A DNA stretch of 64,000 bases, taken from Serinicoccus sediminis. Its GTDB lineage: Bacteria; Actinomycetota; Actinomycetes; Actinomycetales; Dermatophilaceae. Made by a program: the position numbers and the translations under genes. Positions 41,768 through 53,734 of the stretch are shown here, in pieces. The stretch spans positions 1 through 64,000 of the forward strand of contig NZ_SDVA01000008.1 of the NCBI RefSeq assembly GCF_004153545.1. Reading direction: 5' to 3'. Below the pieces are notes generated by a model, which saw nothing but the letters and a program-made list of their open reading frames with translations, had not been told where the DNA came from and made no database searches. Positions within the stretch are counted from its first letter, which is position 1, and each line of letters opens with the position of its first letter.

Positions 41768-41923
41768 GTCTTTCCTCCAGTGACGTCTGTGCAACGAGGT
41801 ATGCGGGGACACTCCCGGGACGTGGGGGGACAAGGTGACCCGTGAGGCATGAGGGACAGTACCCTGCGGACCGAACCACCGCCACCCTTTCGGCGTGTCG
41901 TACCGATGTGATTGACTAGACGT

Positions 41924-42280
41924 GTGGTAAGTGACAGCGATGTAGTTTCTGAGTGGTGGACCATCCCCGACGTCATGGAACGCACCGGGGCGAGCCTGCA
42001 GGAGGCGCGCCGGTGGGTCCAGGAACGTGATGTGGTCGGCCGGCGGCGCGGCCCCGACGCGGTCCTCATGGTCCCGGCCGGGTTCTTCGTGGACGACGGC
42101 CCGCTGCCGTCGTTACGGGGCACCATCACCGTGCTCGCCGACGGTGGGCAGAGCGACGAGGAGATCATCGCCTGGCTGCACGCCCCGGACGAGTCGCTGC
42201 CGGGCGGAAGCGCCCTGGCCTCGTTGCACTCCGGGGCCAAGACCGAGGTGCGCCGCCGGGCGCAGGAGCAGGCCTTCTGA
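41924..42280 (+). CDS. Rv2175c family DNA-binding protein
   Basis: A 118-residue protein with an N-terminal winged-helix-like part (WWTIPDVMERTGASLQEARRWVQERDVVG) and the Rv2175c C-terminal domain (FFVDDGPLPSLRGTITVLADGG, then EEIIAWL). In Mycobacterium the homologue is phosphorylated by PknL, whose counterpart lies nearby, and phosphorylation abolishes DNA binding. GTG 41924 is preferred; an in-frame TTG at 41912 is also possible, since no ribosome binding site is visible and the message may be leaderless. It is divergent from the LysM gene; the 156 bases between them hold both promoters. Confidence 0.87.
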   Translation: MVSDSDVVSEWWTIPDVMERTGASLQEARRWVQERDVVGRRRGPDAVLMVPAGFFVDDGPLPSLRGTITVLADGGQSDEEIIAWLHAPDESLPGGSALASLHSGAKTEVRRRAQEQAF

Positions 42281-42304: not shown

Positions 42305-43387
42305 CTACGTGGAGCGGTCGGTGCAGACCGCCACGAGCTCGGTCAGGGCCTCTCGTCCCTCCGCGGTGAGGTCGGGCGTGCCCCCGAGCTCCTCGAGGGC
42401 CCGCTCCGCGCCACGGCCGACCATCTGCTCGGTCCGCTCGAGGGCGCCGGAGCCCACGAGGACCTCGCGCACCCGCTCGACCGCGTCCTCGTCGAGGTCC
42501 GGGTCGCCCAGGGCCTCCTCGACGAGCGCCGCTCCAGCGGGGCCGGCCTGGGCGAGGGCGTGGGCGATGAGCACGGTGTGCTTGCCCTCGCGCAGGTCGT
42601 CCCCGGCCGGCTTGCCGGTCTGAGAGGGGTCGCCGAAGACGCCGAGGACGTCGTCGCGCAGCTGGAAGGCCTCGCCGAGGGCGGCGCCGTAGCGGCCCAG
42701 GGCAGGCCGGGTCCGCGGTCCGACCCGCGCCGCGTCCGCGCCGATGAGCAGGGGCTGCTGCACCGAGTAGCGCGCGCTCTTGTAGCGGATGACCGTGAGG
42801 CACCGCTCCAGGCGCTGCTCGAGGTCGAGGCCGCCCCAGCCGCGGGCGCCCTCGAGCATGTCGAGGAACTGGCCACCCATGAGCTGGGTGCGCATCCGGT
42901 CGAACTCGGGGCGCGCCCGCTGCAGGGCCTCCTGGGGCAGGCCGCTGGTGGTGAAGACCTCGTCGGTCCAGTTGAGGCAGAGGTCCCCGGCGAGGATCGC
43001 GGCGGCGTGGCCGAAGGAGTCCGGGTCGCCGGACCACCCCTGCTCCCGGTGGTGCCGGGCGAAGCGACGGTGGGCGGTGGGGTGCCCGCGCCGCAGGTCG
43101 CTGTGGTCCATGACGTCGTCGTGCAGCAGGGCGGCGGCCTGGAAGACCTCCATCGCGCTCGCCGCACGCACCGCGGCCGGGTCGTCCGGCCCGCCCAGGG
43201 CGCGCCAGCCCCAGTAGAGGAAGGTGGCCCGCAACCGCTTGCCGCCGTTGAGCAGGTCGGCGATCGCCTCGAGCAGCGGTGCCATGGGCGGCCCCAGCTC
43301 GTCCAGGACGGCGCGCTGCCGGGCGAGCTGCTCGTCCAGAGCCTGCTGCACGCGGGGGCGCAGGTCCACGCGGTCCAGGGCCTGCAT
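42305..43387 (-). CDS. Polyprenyl diphosphate synthase (IdsA/GGPP synthase type)
   Basis: A 360-residue trans-isoprenyl diphosphate synthase that condenses isopentenyl diphosphate with allylic diphosphates. The first Asp-rich motif is DDVMD at 90-94 and the second is DDVLGVFGD; GGKRLRATF and KHTVLIAHAL are further family segments. The product is probably geranylgeranyl or farnesyl diphosphate. The ATG at 43387 follows AGAGGA by 6 bases. A TAGGCT box on the minus strand (43466-43471) suggests a leader of about 70 bases. Confidence 0.92.
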   Translation of the reverse strand: MQALDRVDLRPRVQQALDEQLARQRAVLDELGPPMAPLLEAIADLLNGGKRLRATFLYWGWRALGGPDDPAAVRAASAMEVFQAAALLHDDVMDHSDLRRGHPTAHRRFARHHREQGWSGDPDSFGHAAAILAGDLCLNWTDEVFTTSGLPQEALQRARPEFDRMRTQLMGGQFLDMLEGARGWGGLDLEQRLERCLTVIRYKSARYSVQQPLLIGADAARVGPRTRPALGRYGAALGEAFQLRDDVLGVFGDPSQTGKPAGDDLREGKHTVLIAHALAQAGPAGAALVEEALGDPDLDEDAVERVREVLVGSGALERTEQMVGRGAERALEELGGTPDLTAEGREALTELVAVCTDRST

Positions 43388-43704
43388 CACGGATCCTCTC
43401 GTCCCTCGACGGGCCTGCTGCGGGTGCCGGACGGTCGGTGCGTCCTGGCGGGGCGGCCCGGCCCGAGCCTATCCGCTGCGGCGTCCGGCCCGGGCCGCCC
43501 CCTCCTGCGGCCCGGGCCGTGTCCCATGGTCGCGGGCGGGGCGCCGGCCCCGCGGGAGTTGTCCACAGCCGGCGGCGGTCGCCCGGGACGGGAGGGGTTG
43601 AGTCCGTCGGTGGCTGGTCGTACATTTGTTCCATCACGGTGTCGAACACGAGTTCGATGGACCTGGCTGTCTGCGGACAGGCCGTCATGGAGGAGGTGCA
43701 GCTC
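43388..43704. other. Divergent intergenic region with LexA box and GC-rich palindromes
   Basis: About 317 bases without a convincing gene, between the divergent polyprenyl synthase and DUF6504 genes. It holds a -10-like box for the synthase (43466-43471, minus strand), two copies of a 12-base GC palindrome (43486-43497 and 43508-43519) that can pair with each other, an AT-rich TACATT at 43621-43626 that may be a -10 box for the DUF6504 operon, and a perfect LexA box. An open frame runs through it but has no coding character before 43705. Confidence 0.75.
43642..43657. promoter_or_regulatory. LexA (SOS) box
   Basis: TCGAACACGAGTTCGA is a perfect palindrome and an exact match to the actinobacterial/Gram-positive SOS consensus GAAC-N4-GTTC with TCGA ends. 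It lies 48 bases upstream of the DUF6504 start and just downstream of a TACATT hexamer. It should place the four genes that follow under LexA control. Confidence 0.9.
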
Positions 43705-44154
43705 ATGAGCAGGAGCTATCACGAACCGGTCGAGGTGAGGCTGGGGAGGGCGGCGGAGCACGGCGTGCGGGTCGAGACCGCGCTGCCCGCGGGCGTGGCC
43801 GGGCTGTCCGAGGGCACGGGGGCGCTCGTGTCCGAGGACCCGCAGGTCCCCGCCGTCTTCCTCTGGCGGGGGCGGCTGCACCTCGTGCAGGCGGTCCTGG
43901 GGCAGTGGAGCCTGCGCGTGGCGTGGTGGCGACCCGAGGACCGGGGAGGCCCCATGACGACCGGTCGTGACCGGTCCGAGCTCGGCGACGGGTCCGAGCT
44001 CGGCGACGGGTCCGACCTCGGCGACGGACCGGGCCAGGAGGAGCTGGAGCGGGTCGTCTGGCGGGTCGAGGCCGGGCCGGGGCGTCTCGCGGGGACGGGG
44101 GTCTACGACCTCGTCCAGGGCGAGCGGTGGTGGCTGGAACGGGTCGCCGACTGA
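43705..44154 (+). CDS. DUF6504 family protein, first gene of SOS operon
   Basis: A 149-residue protein of unknown function. Its conserved parts are the start SRSYHEPVEVRLG, the FLWRGRLHLVQAVLGQWSLRVAWWRPED segment (about 50-75) and the final RVVWRVEAGPG...GVYDLVQGERWWLERVAD. The two halves are joined by a linker carrying three SELGDG-type repeats. DUF6504 proteins are, as far as I recall, often encoded beside translesion polymerases in actinobacteria. ATG 43705 is chosen for its strong ribosome binding site (AGGAGGT, 7 bases upstream). No catalytic residues stand out; several conserved Trp suggest a compact binding domain. Confidence 0.8.
   Translation: MSRSYHEPVEVRLGRAAEHGVRVETALPAGVAGLSEGTGALVSEDPQVPAVFLWRGRLHLVQAVLGQWSLRVAWWRPEDRGGPMTTGRDRSELGDGSELGDGSDLGDGPGQEELERVVWRVEAGPGRLAGTGVYDLVQGERWWLERVAD
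43975..44028 (+). repeat. Three 18-bp tandem repeats inside the DUF6504 gene
   Basis: TCCGAGCTCGGCGACGGG at 43975-43992 is repeated exactly at 43993-44010 and with two changes at 44011-44028. It encodes SELGDG three times and is likely to vary in copy number between strains. Confidence 0.9.
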
Positions 44155-44230
44155 CCACCCGCACCGCACCCCGGCGGGTGCTGACCGAGGCGCCGGAGCA
44201 GGCCATGAGGACCACGAGAGGAACGACGAG

Positions 44231-44674
44231 ATGACGACCACCGAGACCGGGGCCACCGCAGGCGCGGTGCTGGACCTGCTGGATCGTTCGCGCGGTGTGC
44301 TGCTGCAGGCCTGCCACAGCGGGACGGCGGCGGAGCGCTACACCCAGGCCCACCTGTCCGCGCTGCGCGCCGGGGCCGCGTTGCTGGCGGCGCGCACGAC
44401 GCCTGCCCCCGGGCGGCGCAGCCGCCCCCGCAGCGTCTGGGAGATGCTTCCGTCGGTCGCTCCCGAGCTGACCGAGTGGGCCGCGTTCTTCGCCGCGTCC
44501 GGCCGTCGCCGGGTGGCCCTGGAGCGGGGTGCGTCCAGCGCCACCGTGACGACACGGGAGGCCGACGACATGGTGCGGGCGGGGGAGCACTTCCTCGAGC
44601 TGGTGCGGGCGGCGCTGCACCTGCCGTGCGAGACCTCCCTGCACGCCGAGCTCGCCCCGCTGGGCCACGGGTGA
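44231..44674 (+). CDS. SAV_6107 family HEPN domain protein
   Basis: A 147-residue helical protein of the SAV_6107 HEPN family. Family segments are VLDLLDRSRGVLLQA, ERYTQAHLSALRAGAALLAAR, RSVWEMLPSVAPELTEWAAFFAASGRRR and TREADDMVRAGEHFLELV. A Rx4H pair (R36, H41) sits in the second helix and matches the spacing of the HEPN RNase motif, although it lies nearer the N-terminus than in HEPN toxins. The ATG follows GAGAGGA by 8 bases; the stop overlaps the start of the polymerase gene (GTGA). Proposed roles are RNA cleavage or a protein-protein scaffold in the SOS response; no function is established. Confidence 0.83.
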   Translation: MTTTETGATAGAVLDLLDRSRGVLLQACHSGTAAERYTQAHLSALRAGAALLAARTTPAPGRRSRPRSVWEMLPSVAPELTEWAAFFAASGRRRVALERGASSATVTTREADDMVRAGEHFLELVRAALHLPCETSLHAELAPLGHG

Positions 44675-47600
44675 GGGCGGCCGTGCCGACGGGGCCGACC
44701 ACGGCAGCAGGGAGTGACGACTTCGTCCACCTGCACGTCGCCTCCAGCGCCTCCATGCGCTACGGCGCCTCCCACCCGGCCGACCTGGTGCGCCGCGCGG
44801 CCGAGCTGGGCCAGTCCGCGCTGGCCCTGACCGACCGCGACGGTCTCTACGGCGCGGTGCGCTTCGTCCGCGCCTGCACCGAGGCGGGGATCGCCCCGGT
44901 GCTGGGGGTGGACCTCGCCCTGGCGGGCTCCCCCTCCGGGCCGGGTGCCGGGCCGGAGGCGCCCGGCCCGGCGCCGACCCCGTTCGTCACCGGGCTGCGG
45001 CCGACGGCTCCCCAGGTGCCGGACCGGGTGGCGCCCGGCCAGGGCTGGGGAGAGGGCCTGGACGTCCGGCCGGCCCGGCGTGGCCCGCGGACCCCGGTCA
45101 AGGGGGGCGCCCTCGTCGACGACCAGCAGCCCCGGGTGGTGCTGCTGGCGCGTGGGCAGCGTGGCGGTGCCGAGGCGGGGGTGGGGTGGGCCCGGTTGTG
45201 CCGCCTGGTGACGCACACCCATCTCTCGGGCGAGCGGTCGGTGCCACGGGTCACCCCCGAGCTCATCGCCCGGGCCGCGACCGGGACCGCCGGGGTCTCC
45301 CCGGTCGTCCTGCTGCTGGGCCCGGACTCCGACGTCGGCAGGGCGCTGCTGGCCCGCCGTCGCGACCTGGCCCGGCGGCTGCTCCAGGCCTGGACGAGGA
45401 TGCTCCCGGCCGGGGCCGTGCGGGTCGAGGTGGTCTGCCACGGTGGCCCCGAGGGGACACCGGGGAGCCTCGCCCACGCGACGGCGTCCTGGGCGCTGGC
45501 CCGGGAGGTCGGGGTGCCTGCCGTGCTCACCGCGGCGGTCCGGCACGTCCACCCGGAGCAGGCGCGGGTCGTCGACGTCCTCGACGCCGCCCGGCGCCGG
45601 GTCGCGCTCGACGAGCGCCATCTCGACCGGGTGAGCGGTGCCGGCCACCTGGCGGGGACCGCCGTCATGCACGGGCTGGCCCGTCAGCTGGAGCGTGCGG
45701 CCGGGCCCGGTGCCCGCGCGGACGAGCTCGTGCGCGACACCCTGCAGCTGGCCGCCGACTGCCACCAGGACGCCCGGTCCGACCTCGGGATCGGGGGCGT
45801 CCACCTGCCGGAGCCCGAGGTGCTCGGCGTCCACGGGGTGGGGCAGGCCCACCAGGTCCTCACCGAGCGCTGCACCCAGGCCGTCGGCGGGCGCTACCCG
45901 GCTGCCGGGAGGGCGTTCGAGCAGCAGGTCCGCGACCGGCTCGAGCAGGAGCTGGGGGTGATCGCCGGGCTGGGGTACCCGACCTACTTCCTCACCGTCG
46001 CCCAGGTCTGCGACCTGGTCCGGGAGCAGGGGGTGCGGGTCGCGGCGCGCGGCTCCGGGGCGGGGAGCCTGGTGGCCTACCTGCTCGGCATCAGCGGGGT
46101 GGACCCGATGGAGCACGGCCTGCTCATGGAGCGGTTCTGCTCCCCGCTGCGGGCCCAGCTGCCGGACATCGACATCGACGTCGAGTCGGCCCGACGCACC
46201 GAGATCTACGAGCGCATCCTCGAGCGCTTCGGGTCCGAGCGGGTGACCTGCGTGTCGATGACCGAGACCTATCGCGTACGGCACGCCGTGCGCGACGTCG
46301 CGGCGACGCTGGGCCTTCCCCCCGGGGAGATCGACGTCATCGCCAAGGCCTTCCCCCACATCCGGGCCCGCGACGCCCGCGCCGCGATCCGGGACCTCCC
46401 CGAACTGCGGCGTCAGGGCCTGGACGCGCCCCGGATGCGCGTCCTCATGGAGCTGGTGGAGTCGCTCGACGGACTGCCGCGGCACATCGCGATGCACCCG
46501 TGCGGGGTGGTCCTGTCCGACACCGGGCTGCTCGACCGGACGCCGGTCGAGGCGAGCTGGCTGGGCTTCCCCATGAGCCAGTTCGACAAGGACGACGTGG
46601 AGGAGCTGGGGCTGCTCAAGCTCGACGTGCTGGGGATCCGGATGCAGTCGGCGATGGCGCACGCCGTCGAGGAGGTCGCGCGGGTCGACGGCACCAGCAT
46701 CGACCTGGACGACCGGGCCCAGGTGCCGCTCGACGACCCGGACACCTTCGCCCTGGTCCAGTCCACCCGCACCCTCGGGTGCTTCCAGATCGAGTCCCCG
46801 GGTCAGCGCGAGCTGGTGGGCAAGTTCGCCCCGGAGACCTTCTCCGACATCATCATCGACATCTCCCTCTTCCGGCCCGGCCCGGTGAAGTCCGACATGA
46901 TCCGCCCGTTCCTCCACGCCCGCCAGGGCTGGGGCGAACCGGAGTACCTCCACCCCAGCCTCATCCCCTACCTCGAGCAGACCTGCGGGGTCGTGGTCTT
47001 CCACGAGCAGGTGCTGCAGATCGTCGCCGAGACCACGGGGGTCTCGCTGGCCCAGGCCGACGAGGTGCGTCGGGCCATGGGCAGCCCTGTCGGGCAGGAG
47101 GAGGTGGAGGTGTGGTGGCGTGCCGCGGCGACCGCCCGGGGCTACCGCGCCGACGAGGTGGACCGGATCTGGGAGGTCCTGGCCGCCTTCGCCTCGTTCG
47201 GCTTCTGCAAGGCGCACGCGGCCGCCTTCGCCCTCCCGACCTACCAGTCGGCCTGGCTCAAGACCCACCACACGGCCGCCTTCCTCGCCGGCGTCCTGAC
47301 CCACGACCCCGGGATGTATCCCAAGCGGCTCATCCTGGACGAGGCCAGGAGCATGGGCGTCCACGTGCTCGGGCTCGACGTCAACGCCTCCCGGGCGACC
47401 TACCGGGTCGAGCGGGTGGCGCCGACGGCGGGGCAGGGGGCTCCCGGCTGGGGTGGGCCGTCCTCGCCCGACGCCTCCTGCGCCGTCGGGGCCCGGGGCA
47501 CGCTGCGCCGCCCACCGGACCACGTGGACGCGGTCATGGCCGCGGTCGAGCGGCGGGCCGGCGGTTACGGCATCCGGTTGTCCCTGGCCGACGTCAAGGG

Positions 47601-48732
47601 CATCACCGAGGACGAGGTCGGCCGGATCGTCGCGGGGCAGCCCTATGACTCCCTGTCCGACCTGTGGCACCGGGCCCGACCCAGCCGGCCCACCGCCGAG
47701 CGGCTGGTGCTGGCCGGGGGGCTCGACGAGCTGCACCGGGTGGGTCGGTGCAGCCCGCGGGCCGGTGGCGACGGGGGTGGCCGCCGGACCGCCGGGGGCG
47801 GTCGGCGTGCCGGGCTGACCCGTCGTGACCTGATGCTCCACGTCCGCGACCTGGAGCGCTGGTCCAGGCACGCGGGCGGGTCGCAGGGGAGCGCCCGGGG
47901 CGGACGCCGTCGCCCGGCGCCGGTGGTCGAGGCGGGGGAGGTCGCCGCGCGGGCGGAGAGCCAGGCGGCGGGTCGCCGCTCGTGGCGTGGTGACGGTGCC
48001 GCCGCGCCCGCCCAGCTGACCCTCGAGCTCGGTGACGACCCGGCACCGCTGGTCGGCAGCGGGCTGCCGGAGATGAGCCCGTCCGAGCAGCTCAGGGCCG
48101 AGCTGGAGGTGCTCGGGCTGGACGTCAGCAGCCACGTGGTCGAGGGGTTCGGGCCCATGCTGGCCGAGCTGGGGGTCACCCGGGCGCGCGACCTGCTCTC
48201 CTACCGGGGTGGCGCCGAGGTGCTGGTCGCCGGGGCCAAGGTCGCCACCCAGACCCCGCCGGTGCGGTCCGGGAGGCGGGTCGTCTTCCTCACCCTCGAG
48301 GACGGCAGCGGGCCGGCCGACGCGACGTTCTTCGAGGACGTCCAGGGACCGTTCGCGACCACGGTGTTCCACTCCTGGCTGCTCCTGGTGCGCGGGGTCG
48401 TGCGCCGCACCGGCCCCCGCGGGATCTCGATCCGGGCCACCGCCGCCTGGGAGCTGGGCGAGGTGGCACAGGCCTGGGAGCACGGCGGGCCGGCGGCGGC
48501 CCGGACGCTCATGGAGCAGTCCGTGCAGCAGGCGCAGCTGCTCGCGCAGGAGGCCGAGGCCGTGTCCCGGGAGGCGTCCTCGACGGCCGGGGCGCCGCCC
48601 GGGCGGCGCGTGCTGGTCCACGCCTCGGGCTTCGTGCAGTCGCCCTACGCCGACATCGCCCCGGCCGGCGAGGCGACCAGGCAGCCCGGGGGCAAGCTGT
48701 GGCACTCCAGCCCCGGGAGCTCCGGATGGTGA
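44671..48732 (+). CDS. dnaE2: DnaE2-like error-prone DNA polymerase III alpha subunit
   Basis: A 1353-residue C-family polymerase. The N-terminal PHP domain starts FVHLHVASSASM and has ALTDRDGLYG. The catalytic Asp pair is in PDIDIDVESARR (about 497) and the third Asp in LLKLDVLGIR (about 652); RPGPVKSDMIRPFLHAR and SFGFCKAHAAAFALPTY are conserved fingers segments. A C-terminal OB fold (about 1180-1270) and the KLWHSSPGSSG tail resemble DnaE2. QLTLEL (about 1114) could bind the sliding clamp. It is longer than mycobacterial DnaE2 owing to Gly/Pro/Arg-rich insertions near residues 90-150, 915-950 and 1025-1110. Start and stop overlap the HEPN and DinB genes. Confidence 0.9.
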   Translation: MRAAVPTGPTTAAGSDDFVHLHVASSASMRYGASHPADLVRRAAELGQSALALTDRDGLYGAVRFVRACTEAGIAPVLGVDLALAGSPSGPGAGPEAPGPAPTPFVTGLRPTAPQVPDRVAPGQGWGEGLDVRPARRGPRTPVKGGALVDDQQPRVVLLARGQRGGAEAGVGWARLCRLVTHTHLSGERSVPRVTPELIARAATGTAGVSPVVLLLGPDSDVGRALLARRRDLARRLLQAWTRMLPAGAVRVEVVCHGGPEGTPGSLAHATASWALAREVGVPAVLTAAVRHVHPEQARVVDVLDAARRRVALDERHLDRVSGAGHLAGTAVMHGLARQLERAAGPGARADELVRDTLQLAADCHQDARSDLGIGGVHLPEPEVLGVHGVGQAHQVLTERCTQAVGGRYPAAGRAFEQQVRDRLEQELGVIAGLGYPTYFLTVAQVCDLVREQGVRVAARGSGAGSLVAYLLGISGVDPMEHGLLMERFCSPLRAQLPDIDIDVESARRTEIYERILERFGSERVTCVSMTETYRVRHAVRDVAATLGLPPGEIDVIAKAFPHIRARDARAAIRDLPELRRQGLDAPRMRVLMELVESLDGLPRHIAMHPCGVVLSDTGLLDRTPVEASWLGFPMSQFDKDDVEELGLLKLDVLGIRMQSAMAHAVEEVARVDGTSIDLDDRAQVPLDDPDTFALVQSTRTLGCFQIESPGQRELVGKFAPETFSDIIIDISLFRPGPVKSDMIRPFLHARQGWGEPEYLHPSLIPYLEQTCGVVVFHEQVLQIVAETTGVSLAQADEVRRAMGSPVGQEEVEVWWRAAATARGYRADEVDRIWEVLAAFASFGFCKAHAAAFALPTYQSAWLKTHHTAAFLAGVLTHDPGMYPKRLILDEARSMGVHVLGLDVNASRATYRVERVAPTAGQGAPGWGGPSSPDASCAVGARGTLRRPPDHVDAVMAAVERRAGGYGIRLSLADVKGITEDEVGRIVAGQPYDSLSDLWHRARPSRPTAERLVLAGGLDELHRVGRCSPRAGGDGGGRRTAGGGRRAGLTRRDLMLHVRDLERWSRHAGGSQGSARGGRRRPAPVVEAGEVAARAESQAAGRRSWRGDGAAAPAQLTLELGDDPAPLVGSGLPEMSPSEQLRAELEVLGLDVSSHVVEGFGPMLAELGVTRARDLLSYRGGAEVLVAGAKVATQTPPVRSGRRVVFLTLEDGSGPADATFFEDVQGPFATTVFHSWLLLVRGVVRRTGPRGISIRATAAWELGEVAQAWEHGGPAAARTLMEQSVQQAQLLAQEAEAVSREASSTAGAPPGRRVLVHASGFVQSPYADIAPAGEATRQPGGKLWHSSPGSSGW

Positions 48733-50099
48733 CCGTCACGGCGCCGGCCCCTGTGACGGCCCCGGCGCCCGCGACAGCTACGGTCCCCGCCACGGCTCCG
48801 GCGCCCGCGACGGCTACGGTCCCCGTCACGGTTCCGGCCCCGGCGGCAGCCCCCGCGGTCCCCGGTGCTCCGGGTCGGCAGGACGCCCCTGCCCCGCGAG
48901 CACGGCCCGGCCCGGTGACGACCGGTGACGCCGGTCGAGGCTGGGTGCTCCACGTCGACATGGACGCCTTCTACGTCGCGGTCTCGCTCCTGGACCGCCC
49001 CGACCTGCACGGACGACCGGTGGCGGTGGGCGGGGGCTGGCGCAGCGTGGTGCTGTCGACCAGCTACGAGGCCCGGGCCTACGGCGTGCGCTCCGGCATG
49101 CCGATGGCCACCGCCCGCCGCAGGTGCCCGTCGCTCGTGGTGGTCCGGCCGGAGCCCGAGCGCTACTCCCGGGTCTCCGACGCGGTGATGGCGGTCTTCG
49201 CCGAGGTCACCCCCCAGGTCGAGCCGGTCTCGATGGAGGAGGCCTTCCTCGACCTCTCCTCCACGGGCCGGCGGTGGGGCGGCCCGGAACGCGTCGGCAG
49301 CTGGATCAGGGACACCGTCGCCGACGAGCAGGGGATCACCTGCTCGGTCGGCGGCGCCCCGTCCAAGGCCGTCGCCAAGATGGCGTCCCGCGCGGCCAAG
49401 CCGGACGGTATGCGCCTGGTCACCCGGGACGAGGTCGTCCCCTTCCTGCACCCCATGCCGGTGGGGGCCCTGTGGGGGGTGGGGGAGTCCACCGAGGCCG
49501 AGCTGCACCGGCTGGGGCTGCACACGGTCGCCGAGCTGGCGCACGTGCCGCTGGCCACGCTGCGACGGGCCCTGGGGGAGCAGTCCGCCGCCCGGTTGCA
49601 CGCCCTGGCGTGGGGCACCGACGACGACCCGGTCGTGGCCCACCGCCGGGAGCGCAGCGTGGGGTCCTCCGAGACGTTCTCGCACGACGTCGACGACCCC
49701 CAGGTCATCCGTCGCCAGCTGCTGCACCTCGCGGAGCGCACCGCGAGCCGCATGCGGCACGGGGGGGTGCTCGGACGCACCGTGGTGCTGACCGTGCGGT
49801 TCTCCGACTTCACCACGATCACCCGCTCACGCACCGTGGCGAGCCCGACCGACGTCACCCGCGAGGTGCACGCGGTCTCCTGCTCGCTGTATGCCGCGCT
49901 GGGGCTGCAGCGCGCCCGCATCCGCATGCTGGGGGTCCGGGTCGAGGGCATCACCGAGGCGGACCGGACCCTCGTCCAGGGCCGGCTCGACGAACCGGAG
50001 CGCGGCTGGCGCGACGCGGAGCGGGCGGTGGACCGAGCCGTCGCCAGGTTCGGCCGCCAGGCGGTGCGACCAGCCAGTCTGCTCTCCCGGCAGCCGTGA
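48726..50099 (+). CDS. dinB: Y-family translesion DNA polymerase (DinB/Pol IV-like)
   Basis: A 457-residue Y-family polymerase. After about 70 low-complexity residues, the catalytic core starts WVLHVDMDAFYVAV (metal Asp at 78 and 80). The second metal motif reads EPVSMEEAFLD (E171-E172), where DinB normally has Asp-Glu, so the first residue is changed to Glu. SYEARAYGVRSGMP, GGAPSKAVAKMASRAAKPDG and a full little-finger domain (RTVVLTVRFSDFTTITRSRT) are present. No ImuB-type loss of the whole active site is seen. It is the last gene of the SOS operon and overlaps the DnaE stop by 7 bases. Confidence 0.9.
   Translation: MVTVTAPAPVTAPAPATATVPATAPAPATATVPVTVPAPAAAPAVPGAPGRQDAPAPRARPGPVTTGDAGRGWVLHVDMDAFYVAVSLLDRPDLHGRPVAVGGGWRSVVLSTSYEARAYGVRSGMPMATARRRCPSLVVVRPEPERYSRVSDAVMAVFAEVTPQVEPVSMEEAFLDLSSTGRRWGGPERVGSWIRDTVADEQGITCSVGGAPSKAVAKMASRAAKPDGMRLVTRDEVVPFLHPMPVGALWGVGESTEAELHRLGLHTVAELAHVPLATLRRALGEQSAARLHALAWGTDDDPVVAHRRERSVGSSETFSHDVDDPQVIRRQLLHLAERTASRMRHGGVLGRTVVLTVRFSDFTTITRSRTVASPTDVTREVHAVSCSLYAALGLQRARIRMLGVRVEGITEADRTLVQGRLDEPERGWRDAERAVDRAVARFGRQAVRPASLLSRQP
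48756..48840 (+). repeat. 36-bp tandem repeats at the 5' end of the DinB-like gene
   Basis: Two 36-base units (48756-48791 and 48792-48827) differ at a few bases and are followed by part of a third. They encode TAPAPATATVPA-type residues in the N-terminal extension. Confidence 0.85.
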
Positions 50100-50211
50100 C
50101 GGAACTCCGGGTAGTGCTCCGTCCGTTGACGTCTTATCCTGGAACTCAACGACGTGGCGTCGGCCCCGTGTCGCAGGTCGCCGACCCCCATCCGCACCAC
50201 CGGAGGTGAAC

Positions 50212-50637
50212 GTGCCGCTCTCAGACCACGAGCAGCGTGTGCTCGAGCAGATGGAGCAGGCCCTCTACGCCGAGGACCCCCGGCTCGCCAGCCAGCTCAA
50301 GCGGTCCGCCAGCAGCGGGGGGGCCGCCGGTCTGGACCGGCGGCGTCTCGTGCTCGGGGTGCTCGTCGCCCTGGGCGGCCTCGGGCTGGTGGTCGTGGGC
50401 GTCATGTCCTCGATGATCTGGATCGGGGTGATCGGCTTCCTCGCCATGGTCCTCGGCGGCGCCTGGGCCGCCTCCCCGACCCGTTCCGGTTCCGGGCGCG
50501 CCGGTCAGCTCACCGTCGTCGGCAAGGACGGGGCGGTGCGCAAGCCCAGCGGCGGCGCGCGCAAGAACCCCCGCACCGGCACCTTCATGCAGCGGATGGA
50601 GCAGCAGTGGGACCGGCGGCGGGAGCAGGGTCCCTGA
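50212..50637 (+). CDS. DUF3040 membrane protein
   Basis: A 141-residue protein starting MPLSDHEQRVLEQMEQALYAEDPRLASQL, the hallmark of DUF3040. Two hydrophobic helices (about 43-64 and 67-85) are followed by a basic tail (RKPSGGARKNPRTGTFMQRMEQQW). In many actinobacteria it lies beside mraZ at the start of the division gene cluster, where it was Rv2169c in M. tuberculosis; here a sigma factor gene follows instead. Function unknown. The GTG follows GGAGGTGA, and a TATCCT box lies at 50135-50140. Confidence 0.92.
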   Translation: MPLSDHEQRVLEQMEQALYAEDPRLASQLKRSASSGGAAGLDRRRLVLGVLVALGGLGLVVVGVMSSMIWIGVIGFLAMVLGGAWAASPTRSGSGRAGQLTVVGKDGAVRKPSGGARKNPRTGTFMQRMEQQWDRRREQGP

Positions 50638-51245
50638 GTCCCGACGCCGCCGACCGCGACCCGGGCCCAGCCCGGGTCGTCGACCTTCCCGACGCGGACC
50701 GCCGCGAGATCTTCCCGCTGATCGCCCGTATCGCCGACGGTGACCAGCGCGCCCTGGCCGACCTGTACGACCAGGTGTCCCCCCGCATCTTCGGGCTGGC
50801 CCTGCGCATCGTCCGGGACCGGTCGATCGCCGAGGAGGTCACCCAGGACGTCTTCGTCCAGATCTGGCGGCAGGCCGCCGAGGTCGACCCGCGGCGCGGC
50901 TCGGCCATCGGCTGGATCATGACCCTGACCCACCGGCGCGCGGTCGACCGGGTCAGATCCGAGCAGGCGCAATCCGATCGGCTGCACCGCTACGAATCCC
51001 GGCAGACGACGAGGCCCTACGACGTCACCGCCGAGGAGGTGACCGACCGGGCCGAGGCGGAACGCGTCCACGCAGCGCTGGACCGGATCGGTGAGCCGCA
51101 CCGCACGACGGTGGCCTTGGCGTACTTCTCCGGGCTGACGCAGAGCGAGGTCGCGCACCGGCTCGGCATACCGCTCGGCACCGCTAAGACGCGGATCAGA
51201 GACGGGTTGAAGAAGCTGCGCGGACAGCTGGAGGAGGTGAGCTGA
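50607..51245 (+). CDS. sigK: ECF sigma factor, SigK type
   Basis: A 212-residue sigma-70 family factor. Region 2 is ALADLYDQVSPRIFGLALRIVRDRSIAEEVTQDVFVQIWR and SAIGWIMTLTHRRAVDRVRSE; region 4 is IGEPHRTTVALAYFSGLTQSEVAHRLGIPLGTAKTRIRDGLKKL. It is followed without gap by an RskA anti-sigma gene, which defines the SigK group. The start is uncertain: no ATG or TTG exists near the conserved part. GTG 50607 lies inside the DUF3040 gene; a CTG at 50634 overlapping the DUF3040 stop would give 203 residues. Confidence 0.88.
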   Translation: MGPAAGAGSLSPDAADRDPGPARVVDLPDADRREIFPLIARIADGDQRALADLYDQVSPRIFGLALRIVRDRSIAEEVTQDVFVQIWRQAAEVDPRRGSAIGWIMTLTHRRAVDRVRSEQAQSDRLHRYESRQTTRPYDVTAEEVTDRAEAERVHAALDRIGEPHRTTVALAYFSGLTQSEVAHRLGIPLGTAKTRIRDGLKKLRGQLEEVS

Positions 51246-52055
51246 ATGGGTGAGGACGACGTGCGTGACCACGACGTCTCCGGTGACGGACACCACGAGG
51301 ACCTGCACGGGGCCGCCTTCGCGTACGCCATCGACGCCCTCGACGACGACGAACGACACGAGTTCGAGGCCCACCTGGCCGACTGTGCGTCCTGCCGAGC
51401 CGAGGTCGCCGAGACCCAGGACGCGGTGGGCGTGCTCAGCGACGACCTGGCGGTGGACCCGCCACCGGGGCTCCGCGCGCAGGTGCTCGACCGGGTGGCG
51501 GCCGAGGCGGGCGGTCAGGGCGAGCGGTCGCCCCGGACCGAGGCCCGACCCAGCTCGGGCTCCGGTGTGACCTCGCTGGACTCGCGGCGCGCCGCGTCCC
51601 GGGACCGTGCCGGACGTATGCCGCACGTAGGTCGCTGGCTCGGGGCGGCGGCGGCCGCGGTGGTCCTCGCCGGCGGGATCTGGGGCGTGTCGCAGACGCT
51701 GGACCCCGATCCCACCCAGGAGGTGCTCAGGGCCGACGACGCGTCCGAGCACACCGCGGACACCGAGACCGGCCCGGTCGCCGTCACCGTGTCCGGCGCC
51801 GTCGGACAGGCCGTGGTCCAGCTGCCCGGTGGCTTCGCCGCCCCGCAGGCCGGGCAGGTCTACCAGGCCTGGTTCGTCGGCCCGGACGGGTCCGCCCGGT
51901 CCGCCGGCCTCATCGACGCGGAGACGGTCGCCCAGGGGGAGACCCTGCTCGAGGGCGCGCCCCAGGACGCCGTCGCCGTCGGTCTCACGGTGGAGCCGGA
52001 GGGCGGCTCCGACCAGCCCACCAGTGAGCCGTTCGTCGTGGTGCCGCTGACCTGA
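51246..52055 (+). CDS. rskA: RskA-type anti-sigma factor
   Basis: A 269-residue membrane protein that holds SigK at the membrane. The N-terminal zinc-containing anti-sigma domain includes HEFEAHLADCASCRAEV (H-x3-C-x2-C). One membrane helix lies at about 133-152 (LGAAAAAVVLAGGIWGV), and the extracytoplasmic RskA domain follows (QVYQAWFVGPDGSARSAGLI). In mycobacteria RskA is removed by regulated proteolysis, releasing SigK. The ATG follows GGAGGAGGTGA and immediately abuts the sigma gene stop. Confidence 0.93.
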   Translation: MGEDDVRDHDVSGDGHHEDLHGAAFAYAIDALDDDERHEFEAHLADCASCRAEVAETQDAVGVLSDDLAVDPPPGLRAQVLDRVAAEAGGQGERSPRTEARPSSGSGVTSLDSRRAASRDRAGRMPHVGRWLGAAAAAVVLAGGIWGVSQTLDPDPTQEVLRADDASEHTADTETGPVAVTVSGAVGQAVVQLPGGFAAPQAGQVYQAWFVGPDGSARSAGLIDAETVAQGETLLEGAPQDAVAVGLTVEPEGGSDQPTSEPFVVVPLT

Positions 52056-52073
52056 GCGGCGGCATACCGCAGC

Positions 52074-52089
52074 CGTGACGTGGGTCACA
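52074..52089. promoter_or_regulatory. Crp/GlxR-like palindrome upstream of the CHRD gene
   Basis: CGTGACGTGGGTCACA fits the Crp/GlxR pattern TGTGA-N6-TCACA with one mismatch. It lies about 95 bases before the CHRD start, in a 127-base gap. A weak SigK-like pair (CAATCC at 52094, TCGAAC at 52115) follows it but is speculative. Confidence 0.4.
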
Positions 52090-52182
52090 CCTGCAATCCG
52101 GACCCGGTGCGGCGTCGAACCCCTGGTGTTCCACGACGCCGCGGCACCCGGCTGCGGCGCCGGACACCAAGGAGTGAGATCC

Positions 52183-52947
52183 ATGAAGGTCACCACCGCA
52201 CTGGCCGCCCTGGCCGCACCCGCGATCCTCGCGGTGAGTGCCGCCCCGGCCACGGCCCACGACATCGAGAACGAGACCGTCGAGCTGATGACGTCGCTGG
52301 ACGAGCTGAACGACTCCGGCGGCAGCGGGGAGGCCTGGGCCAAGGTCACCGGCAACGAGGTGTGGATCAAGGTCGAGGTCCAGGGTCTGCTGGACGGCGC
52401 GCCGCACGCCCAGCACATCCACCTCGGTGGTGCAGCGGAGTGCCCCGACCCGTCGATGATGGGCAGCGGCTACGAGGGGGCCATCCGGACCACCGACGCC
52501 ATCGACAGCTACGGCGAGGTGCGGGTCTCCCTGACCGGCAACGACGCCGACACCTCTGAGGCCGCGGCCCTCGACGTGGCCAACTTCCCGGCCGACGGCA
52601 CCTACACCTACGAGCGGACCTTCGAGGTGCCGCAGGACGTGGCCGAGGGCCTGCACCACGGCGACGGCGTCGTCGTCGTCCACGGGGTGGACCACGACGG
52701 CTCCGGCGAGTACGACGGCGAGCAGATGTCCGACCTCGACGACAGCCTGCCGTCGGAGGCCACGGACCCGGCCCTCTGCGGGGCCCTCCAGGAGGGCCAG
52801 ATGAGCGCTCCGGGCGGTGGCGTCGCGACCGGTGGTGGCAGCACCGGCGGGCTGGAGAACACCGGGCTGATCGCCGGTGGCGCGCTCCTGGTCGCCGCAG
52901 GGGCGGGGGCCTTCGCGCTCAACCAGCGTCGGCGCGCGGAGAGCTGA
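52183..52947 (+). CDS. Secreted CHRD domain protein with sortase-type C-terminus
   Basis: A 254-residue surface protein. The N-terminus is a signal peptide (MKVTTALAALAAPAILAVSA, cleavage near ATA-HD). The CHRD domain follows (residues about 30-190) with HAQHIHLGGAAECP. A Gly/Thr linker leads to LENTG (224-228), a hydrophobic stretch [18 protein letters not shown] and the basic tail NQRRRAES, which is the plan of a cell-wall sorting signal with Glu in place of the usual Pro or Ala. The next gene encodes a class F sortase, its probable partner. The CHRD domain has no established bacterial function. ATG after AAGGAGTGAG. Confidence 0.86.
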   Translation: MKVTTALAALAAPAILAVSAAPATAHDIENETVELMTSLDELNDSGGSGEAWAKVTGNEVWIKVEVQGLLDGAPHAQHIHLGGAAECPDPSMMGSGYEGAIRTTDAIDSYGEVRVSLTGNDADTSEAAALDVANFPADGTYTYERTFEVPQDVAEGLHHGDGVVVVHGVDHDGSGEYDGEQMSDLDDSLPSEATDPALCGALQEGQMSAPGGGVATGGGSTGGLENTGLIAGGALLVAAGAGAFALNQRRRAES

Positions 52948-52948
52948 C

Positions 52949-53734
52949 ATGAGCACGGACCAGCCGGGCCAGGGCCGGCGGGGAGTCCTCCTCACGGCCC
53001 TGGCCGTGCTGGCCGTCCTCGTCGGTGTCGTGGTCATCGCGGTCGGTGTCGCCACCCAGCGACCCGATCCTCCCTCGCCCCCGGCGGCCACCTCCGCGGC
53101 CGAGCCGACCGAGGCCACCGGCGGGCCGGAGGACGAGCAGCCGGACGAGGCGGGGTCCGACGACCCTGCCGACGACGGGCAGTCGGCCACCTCGGCCCCC
53201 GGGAGCTCCGCGCAGGACGAGGGCCAGGACGGGCAGGAGACGGAGCAGCCCGCCGAGCCGGAGGTCGCCGCCCTCGACCCCTCCGAGCCGGTCGAGGTGC
53301 GCATCCCGTCGATCGACGTGGTGAGCCCGCTGCACCCCCTCGGTCTGGCCGAGGACGGCACCCTGGAGGTCCCGAGCGGCGACCGCTACGACGAGGCCGC
53401 CTGGTACGACGGCTCGCCCACCCCGGGCGAGGTCGGGCCGACGGTCATCGAGGGTCACGTCACCGGTGCCGGTGGTGTGGAGTCCGTGTTCTTCGACCTG
53501 GGGGCGTTGCGGGCCGGGGACACGGCCGAGGTCGAGCGCGAGGACGGCCGCACGGTCACCTTCGAGGTCTACCGGGTGGACCAGTTCGCCAAGGACGCCT
53601 TCCCGACGGTCGACGTCTACGGCCCGACCGACAGCCCCGAGCTGCGGCTCATCACCTGCGGCGGGGAGTTCGACGAGGCGGAGCAGAGCCACGAGGACAA
53701 CACCGTGGTGTACGCCCGCATGGTCGAGGGCTGA
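52949..53734 (+). CDS. Class F sortase
   Basis: A 261-residue transpeptidase. An N-terminal membrane anchor (LLTALAVLAVLVGVVVIAVGVA, about 14-35) is followed by a 75-residue Pro/Glu/Asp/Ser-rich spacer and then the sortase barrel. Catalytic elements are His in VIEGHVTG, Cys in RLITCGG and Arg in VVYARMVEG. It should cleave a sorting motif and link the protein to the cell wall. It starts 1 base after the CHRD stop, with GGAGAG upstream, so the two are an operon. Confidence 0.9.
   Translation: MSTDQPGQGRRGVLLTALAVLAVLVGVVVIAVGVATQRPDPPSPPAATSAAEPTEATGGPEDEQPDEAGSDDPADDGQSATSAPGSSAQDEGQDGQETEQPAEPEVAALDPSEPVEVRIPSIDVVSPLHPLGLAEDGTLEVPSGDRYDEAAWYDGSPTPGEVGPTVIEGHVTGAGGVESVFFDLGALRAGDTAEVEREDGRTVTFEVYRVDQFAKDAFPTVDVYGPTDSPELRLITCGGEFDEAEQSHEDNTVVYARMVEG

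Follow-up and report, generated by a model that had tools for sequence, protein, structure and literature searches.

Damage-induced mutagenesis aids bacterial adaptation, and knowledge of its accessory factors in actinobacteria is incomplete. Besides the canonical ImuA′-ImuB-DnaE2 mutasome, passages of PMC12926913 (2026) predict one made of DnaE2B, the C-terminal module of ImuB (ImuB-C), an active Y-family polymerase (PolY) and RecA, with Tessaracoccus lapidicaptus as the example. In Streptomyces, according to parts of PMC12926913 and PMC6511836, DnaE2B shares an operon with the inactive PolY scDinB2 in a DnaE2B-scDinB2-RecA system, and a passage of PMC9380542 has dnaE2-dinP of S. venezuelae controlled by LexA. 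ImuB-C was defined by Aravind and colleagues in a section of PMC3765255 that also notes free-standing copies alongside DinB or DnaE2. Here we analyze a 64,000-nucleotide stretch of Serinicoccus sediminis (GCF_004153545.1, contig NZ_SDVA01000008.1, positions 1 to 64,000; hereafter the window), in which a LexA box precedes genes for a DUF6504 protein, a HEPN protein, a DnaE2-type polymerase and a PolY. Taken as a whole, this locus is probably best explained as an SOS operon that carries a split mutasome together with a separate, widely conserved SOS HEPN protein.

The probable operon and its LexA box

A perfect 16-base LexA palindrome, TCGAACACGAGTTCGA, is located at 43642-43657 (+), 47 bases before the ATG (43705) of the DUF6504 gene, and equivalent boxes are found upstream in relatives. 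Behind it, profile matches identify four genes on the same strand: DUF6504 at 43705-44154 (149 residues, PF20114), the HEPN_SAV_6107 protein at 44231-44674 (147 residues, PF18726), a DnaE2B-type error-prone C-family polymerase at 44671-48732 (1353 residues) and PolY at 48726-50099. The HEPN and DnaE frames overlap at GTGA (44671-44674, read directly from the sequence), and the DnaE stop (48730-48732) shares 7 or 4 bases with PolY, depending on whether the latter starts at ATG 48726 or GTG 48729 (48699 is a less likely start). An earlier note, made from the letters of the window, had described the perfect box, the four co-directional genes, both overlaps and an SOS-type control, and all of these hold.

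Within the window, GAACNNNNGTTC matches only this box; shuffled windows carry a mean of 0.30 matches, with at least one in 26 of 100 shuffles, a modest rarity taken alone. The whole 3.55-Mb genome has three perfect CGAACNNNNGTTCG sites and none of the reversed control pattern. This rarity in the genome, the box itself and its conservation in relatives are the sequence-level support for SOS-type control, and we infer that the genes form an SOS operon under LexA control of the 43642 box. The second perfect site (L222, contig C6, position 20536) lies between an open reading frame (ORF) of DUF222/HNH type and one that encodes an AAA, RuvB-like P-loop domain; the third (L223, contig C14, position 53447) falls within or beside an ORF for a phage-type integrase, perhaps part of a mobile element. 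At up to two mismatches, three LexA-like sites were found against 1.85 expected, and an imperfect site with two mismatches just upstream of the perfect box (43618-43633, +) is possibly due to chance. No LexA box at up to one mismatch was found in the stretch examined around the genome's own recA (L217), about 1.4 kb upstream included.

The named DnaE2 loci that we compared are the best 80 of more, and 74 of them have at least 1.5 kb of upstream sequence. Directly upstream of DnaE2 and on the same strand, HEPN is present in 71 and DUF6504 in 67 of these 74, HEPN and DnaE2B often overlapping. The HEPN exceptions are L089 (none of the profiled genes nearby), L132 (no HEPN found) and L156, a Nocardioides metagenome-assembled genome whose HEPN and DUF6504 genes are reversed and lie divergently from DnaE2. 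Of the 61 loci that extend far enough, 46 have PolY no more than 9 kb past the DnaE2 start. The 15 misses comprise 13 loci from Blastococcus, Trujillonella, Geodermatophilus or Modestobacter, six of these with a PolY match slightly further on (L117, L124, L131, L133, L138, L140), and the loci L089 and L119. The LexA box before the first gene is perfect in 65 of 72 loci and has at most one mismatch in 71. Among 60 further loci, chosen from across the families, 30 (15 families) have the complete order DUF6504>HEPN>DnaE2>PolY>DUF3040, and Tessaracoccus antarcticus (L139) has DUF6504>HEPN>DnaE2>PolY with a perfect LexA box. A conserved class I methyltransferase gene often stands between DnaE2 and PolY (e.g., L017, L042, L034), where the window is without it; in some loci it is also seen between HEPN and PolY or DUF3040. 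The earlier note had proposed a survey of gene neighbourhoods, and since the DUF6504-HEPN-DnaE-PolY arrangement recurs across genomes, it is not a product of chance.

The polymerase module

The window DnaE carries the DxD and KLD polymerase carboxylate motifs and a QLTLEL clamp-type motif. Its PHP domain begins with HLHVAS in place of the HLHNHT of the genome's own DnaE1 and therefore looks broken, on the usual catalytic reading of such PHP and polymerase motifs. Among 40 DnaE2 matches, HLHVAS or HLHTAS opens the PHP domain in 30, and DxD and KLD-type motifs are present in 39, the exception being a 103-residue piece. In L013, L103, L121 and L137, the DnaE2 match comes in two pieces, possibly through assembly errors or decay. 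The genome has one other DnaE match, a single gene on contig C19 with an intact PHP start, which we read as DnaE1. Among the best 80 of more matches, the closest named relatives of the window protein come from Ornithinimicrobium cerasi and O. tianjinense, at 74-76% identity, so the window probably belongs to that genus or to one beside it.

A tree built from 27 hand-chosen proteins groups the window DnaE with other DUF6504-linked DnaEs, that of T. antarcticus and that of a Streptomyces plasmid (19 rows, support 100/100), and seven DnaE2s adjoining ImuA and ImuB form a separate clade (100/99). The DnaE1 and Streptomyces rows are long, the Streptomyces placement is unsure and three rows are of unlike composition. 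By motifs and tree, the protein fits DnaE2B as portrayed in passages of PMC12926913. On the Streptomyces plasmid (L076), DnaE is accompanied by a short PolY (339 residues; mainly IMS C-terminal and HHH domains), with an IS5 transposase not far away.

The window PolY has the motifs DMDAFY and SMEEAFL, and motifs of neither type are present in four ImuBs. Acidic residues are kept in all 47 PolY matches other than ImuB. The search of this genome found three IMS proteins, whose bit scores (130-165) differ from those of five ImuBs (25-57), and none of the three is ImuB-like. The window PolY looks to be of the active, catalytic type, in line with the apparently complete Y-family polymerase of the earlier note. 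At its tail the protein is similar to the N-terminus of RecA from this genome, a likeness that would correspond to the RecA-NT motif described in part of PMC6511836. Two points weigh against this reading of PolY: one catalytic Asp is Glu in all seven loci of the window's genus (the other 40 have Asp), and the RecA likeness was judged by eye.

DUF6504 most likely represents a free-standing ImuB-C, going by one ImuB above threshold and by context. The window protein scores 52.3 bits against PF20114 (cut-off 24.2), and the same profile finds the C-terminus of Agrobacterium vitis ImuB (residues 428-502) with 28.7 bits, the one of three proteobacterial ImuBs above the cut-off; of 14 control genomes, only Caulobacter vibrioides matches. 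The window protein is modelled as a largely beta-stranded fold (mean predicted local distance difference test score, pLDDT, 78.7), and a PDB fold search with the model found no relative; likewise, a passage of PMC12926913 has ImuB-C as a beta-barrel without close PDB relatives. Several results pull the other way. Dinoroseobacter ImuB stays under the PF20114 cut-off (13.7 bits, at the same C-terminal place), B. glumae ImuB and two actinobacterial ImuB2s have no PF20114 match, and a custom DUF6504 profile was unconvincing against four actinobacterial ImuB2 tails (best E 0.0084 in the four-sequence set; hhalign probability 0.9%). A literature search on DUF6504 found no paper, and reading it as ImuB-C would give a role to a Pfam family of unknown function.

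If DUF6504 is most likely ImuB-C, then ImuB would be split here rather than simply missing. This changes two of the earlier statements in part. The absence of an inactive ImuB agrees with the IMS proteins found, but the C-terminal domain of ImuB is probably present as DUF6504; similarly, of the two small proteins said to be of unknown function, DUF6504 most likely has one, through the PF20114 match to A. vitis ImuB. ImuA′ was not found in this genome in a weak test, a RecA profile that returned RecA and one match below the cut-off; the Pfam models fail to recognize the ImuA′ of a relative, which limits a profile search for it.

The HEPN gene across actinobacteria

The window HEPN protein matches PF18726 with 112.9 bits (cut-off 27.2, E 1.1e-32), and its predicted model is helical (mean pLDDT 90.8). 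In a Foldseek search of the PDB, ranks 1-3 are HEPN proteins (probability 0.99-1.00, E 0.15-0.62); it speaks against the fold assignment that no match has E < 0.1 and that, from rank 4 on, the matches are mostly cytochrome b562-like helical bundles. Nine residues are invariant in an alignment of 27 sequences (A27, A44, W70, P78, W83, A111, D112, F121, V125), and the canonical HEPN RNase pair R-X4-6-H is absent from them; an R36-x4-H41 pair in helix 2 is not invariant. Most HEPN domains have RNase activity according to a passage of PMC3710099, whose table lists the SAV_6107 family as actinobacterial and without a conserved motif, giving no gene context. On these two grounds, the missing invariant pair and the table, we rejected a toxin with the usual RNase motif. 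The missing motif, together with the helical model and the invariant residues, favours a binding role. We met SAV_6107 only in PMC3710099, the term not having been searched alone, and a search for HEPN with translesion, judged from its listing, found nothing on this protein.

The regulatory context of the family is more telling. We collected 114 HEPN loci outside the window, 108 from 159 HEPN-positive genomes (picked over families, not at random) and six of the window's genus, and counted perfect LexA boxes in the 500 bases preceding HEPN or a DUF6504 gene in front of it. Such a box is present at 94 of the 114 loci, spread over 27 of 31 families, compared with 20 of 3555 windows drawn at random from these loci; the boxed loci comprise 43 of 50 with DUF6504, 4 of 6 with ImuA′ and 47 of 58 others. 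Even where DnaE2, PolY and ImuA′ are all absent from the roughly 3 to 10 kb seen downstream, 26 of 35 HEPN loci have the box, with no polymerase in view in families f25 (10 of 10), f28 (9 of 9), f23 (3 of 4) and f44 (1 of 1). At one f25 locus (L029), the next coding-like ORF past HEPN runs opposite, which suggests transcription of HEPN by itself. The trend fails in family f27, whose genomes are of Streptomyces-like size and where none of six loci has a perfect box. The other families without one are f39 (one mismatch in both loci), f43 (one locus) and f29, which fails our rule yet has a LexA box before HEPN.

Passages of PMC5055667 place the conserved hypothetical gene cg2381 of Corynebacterium glutamicum in the LexA regulon, not far from mraZ (cg2378). 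They give it an M value of 3.86 under ciprofloxacin, and among the induced genes that lack a known function it comes second, behind divS. C. glutamicum has a PF18726 match, and HEPN adjoins DUF3040 in two f15 loci. Judged by position, cg2381 is likely to be the HEPN gene. HEPN looks like an overlooked DNA-damage-response protein common to many actinobacteria.

One could go further and see in HEPN an SOS checkpoint or RNA-directed effector, a brake on growth or division unrelated to lesion bypass, which shares an operon with the polymerases since both are SOS genes. The boxed loci with no polymerase in view, the RNase activity of most HEPN domains and the rank of cg2381 next to divS are what one would expect of such a protein, but the SAV_6107 family has no motif in the PMC3710099 table, no canonical pair is invariant in the 27 sequences and the gene is strongly attached to polymerase loci. 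We regard a checkpoint or effector as possible, though doubtful.

How closely HEPN belongs to the split mutasome can be judged from genomes that have one without the other. Some counts sit uneasily with an operon that unites the two. HEPN (159 genomes) and DUF6504 (93) occur together in 56 of 236 genomes, with an odds ratio of 0.59 (p 0.066), and 23 f31 genomes have DUF6504 whereas none of the 159 genomes with HEPN is of f31. The only f31 locus read (L070) is DUF6504>DnaE2>PolY>DUF3040 without HEPN, and L132 likewise has DUF6504>DnaE2>PolY without it. Of the 53 genomes that list positions for both genes, 42 have them side by side, the other 11 all being f25; nine of the 159 HEPN genomes lack a listed position, and three of these were seen with DUF6504 adjacent when the loci were read. 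Since co-occurrence does not exceed chance, HEPN is probably an independent SOS factor that is co-transcribed here and not an obligate mutasome subunit; with HEPN found where no mutasome is adjacent and DUF6504 loci found without HEPN, each appears able to do without the other. The earlier note had suggested an alternative actinobacterial mutasome with its own accessory factors. An alternative mutasome it may well be, but HEPN would not be the cassette's own, because its gene has a LexA box even at loci without a polymerase in view and DUF6504>DnaE2>PolY occurs without it.

The same evidence makes it unlikely that HEPN works in the DnaE2B mutasome as a genuine fourth subunit or as its loader and also serves ImuA′-ImuB-DnaE2. 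Its place directly upstream of DnaE2B in 71 of 74 loci, often overlapping, would suit a subunit, as would the six f26 and f39 loci in which it precedes ImuA′ and the many genomes in which an active-type PolY follows HEPN with no DnaE2 there. A subunit should not, however, be missing from the f31 genomes and L070, have a box of its own in f25, f28 and f23 where the sequence seen contains no polymerase, or show no positive co-occurrence with DUF6504.

The flanks described in the earlier note are present: a polyprenyl synthetase gene, divergent from the operon, at 42305-43390 (−), next to a Rv2175c-type gene at 41912-42280 (+), and DUF3040 at 50212-50637 (+, start approximate), the next profiled gene past PolY in most relatives. 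Within 50154-53734, DUF3040 is followed by genes for an extracytoplasmic function (ECF) sigma factor, an RskA-type anti-sigma factor and a sortase. The locus does not look like a whole cassette inserted into a conserved block. Many genomes without DUF6504 and DnaE2B at this block have HEPN>methyltransferase>PolY>DUF3040, HEPN>methyltransferase>DUF3040 or HEPN>DUF3040, and we rejected insertion of the whole four-gene cassette since HEPN, PolY and DUF3040 are there without the rest. At the same site, four loci of f26 and f39 have HEPN>ImuA′>ImuB>DnaE2>methyltransferase>PolY, and two more f26 loci begin with HEPN>ImuA′, so that HEPN precedes ImuA′ in six; ImuA′ was recognized by reading and by a profile seeded from one of those proteins. 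The ImuB ORF of L059 (9426-13274) has a long tandem repeat of about 10 residues in its linker. The variable part of the block is thus DUF6504 plus DnaE2B, or ImuA′-ImuB-DnaE2 in the same place. On a wider reading, which we regard as possible but less likely than not, the HEPN gene might mark a set position in the chromosome where modules of mutasomes are acquired, dropped or exchanged for one another.

The polymerase-free orders HEPN>DUF3040 and HEPN>methyltransferase>DUF3040 could also mean that HEPN is a passenger of the block and that the LexA boxes serve polymerases only. This is improbable given the perfect box in 26 of 35 polymerase-free HEPN loci against 20 of 3555 random windows, a comparison in which 3-10 kb downstream were seen and distant operon members are possible.

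Proposed mechanism and comparison with described mutasomes

On the observed gene content, order, box, clade and conservation we base a model of an SOS operon with a split mutasome and a separate HEPN protein; induction, complex formation, ImuB-C docking, RecA recruitment, the role of HEPN and all other molecular functions are proposed conditionally. LexA on the 43642 box would repress the operon until RecA-driven loss of LexA releases it. DnaE2B, lacking proofreading because its PHP site is broken, would then copy past lesions. PolY, catalytic-type and with its RecA-NT-like tail, would replace the body of ImuB and recruit RecA, and DUF6504, as a free ImuB-C, would replace the C-terminal domain of ImuB and dock on DnaE2, a docking taken from published ImuB models. 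The co-transcribed HEPN protein would most likely serve damage tolerance as a helical adaptor without enzymatic activity, working with either type of mutasome and also where neither is encoded nearby. If HEPN is indeed a general SOS factor, the regulon gains a component so far left as a hypothetical protein, and one shared gene and site links two types of mutasome.

That the window merely holds a canonical ImuA′-ImuB-DnaE2 mutasome mis-read is extremely unlikely and was rejected, for although a DnaE2-type polymerase and a Y-family protein do stand behind a LexA box, DnaE is outside the ImuA-ImuB-linked clade, PolY is catalytic-type and no inactive ImuB was found, the genome's IMS proteins scoring 130-165 bits against 25-57 for five ImuBs. 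With the canonical system the locus shares the LexA box, a DnaE2 with polymerase motifs and the ImuB-C module, and in f26 and f39 the canonical cassette follows this HEPN gene at the corresponding chromosomal position; the locus differs in its DnaE2 clade, in having no inactive ImuB found and in ImuA′ not found (weakly tested). With the Streptomyces DnaE2B-scDinB2-RecA system, in the passages that describe it, it shares DnaE2B and PolY in one operon, whereas there PolY is inactivated, ImuB-C is missing and HEPN goes unmentioned.

The HEPN_SAV_6107 family of the PMC3710099 table counts the window protein as a member, and our analysis adds LexA boxes and a linkage to polymerases to what the table gives. 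The closest likeness is to the predicted DnaE2B-[ImuB-C]-PolY-RecA mutasome: both are actinobacterial, with a DnaE2B-type clade, an active-type PolY and a free-standing ImuB-C (DUF6504), and they differ in the Glu that the window PolY has for one catalytic Asp. The main text of PMC12926913 makes no mention of HEPN. The polymerase part of the locus therefore appears to be of a type already predicted, and the new element appears to be the constant, LexA-boxed HEPN gene.

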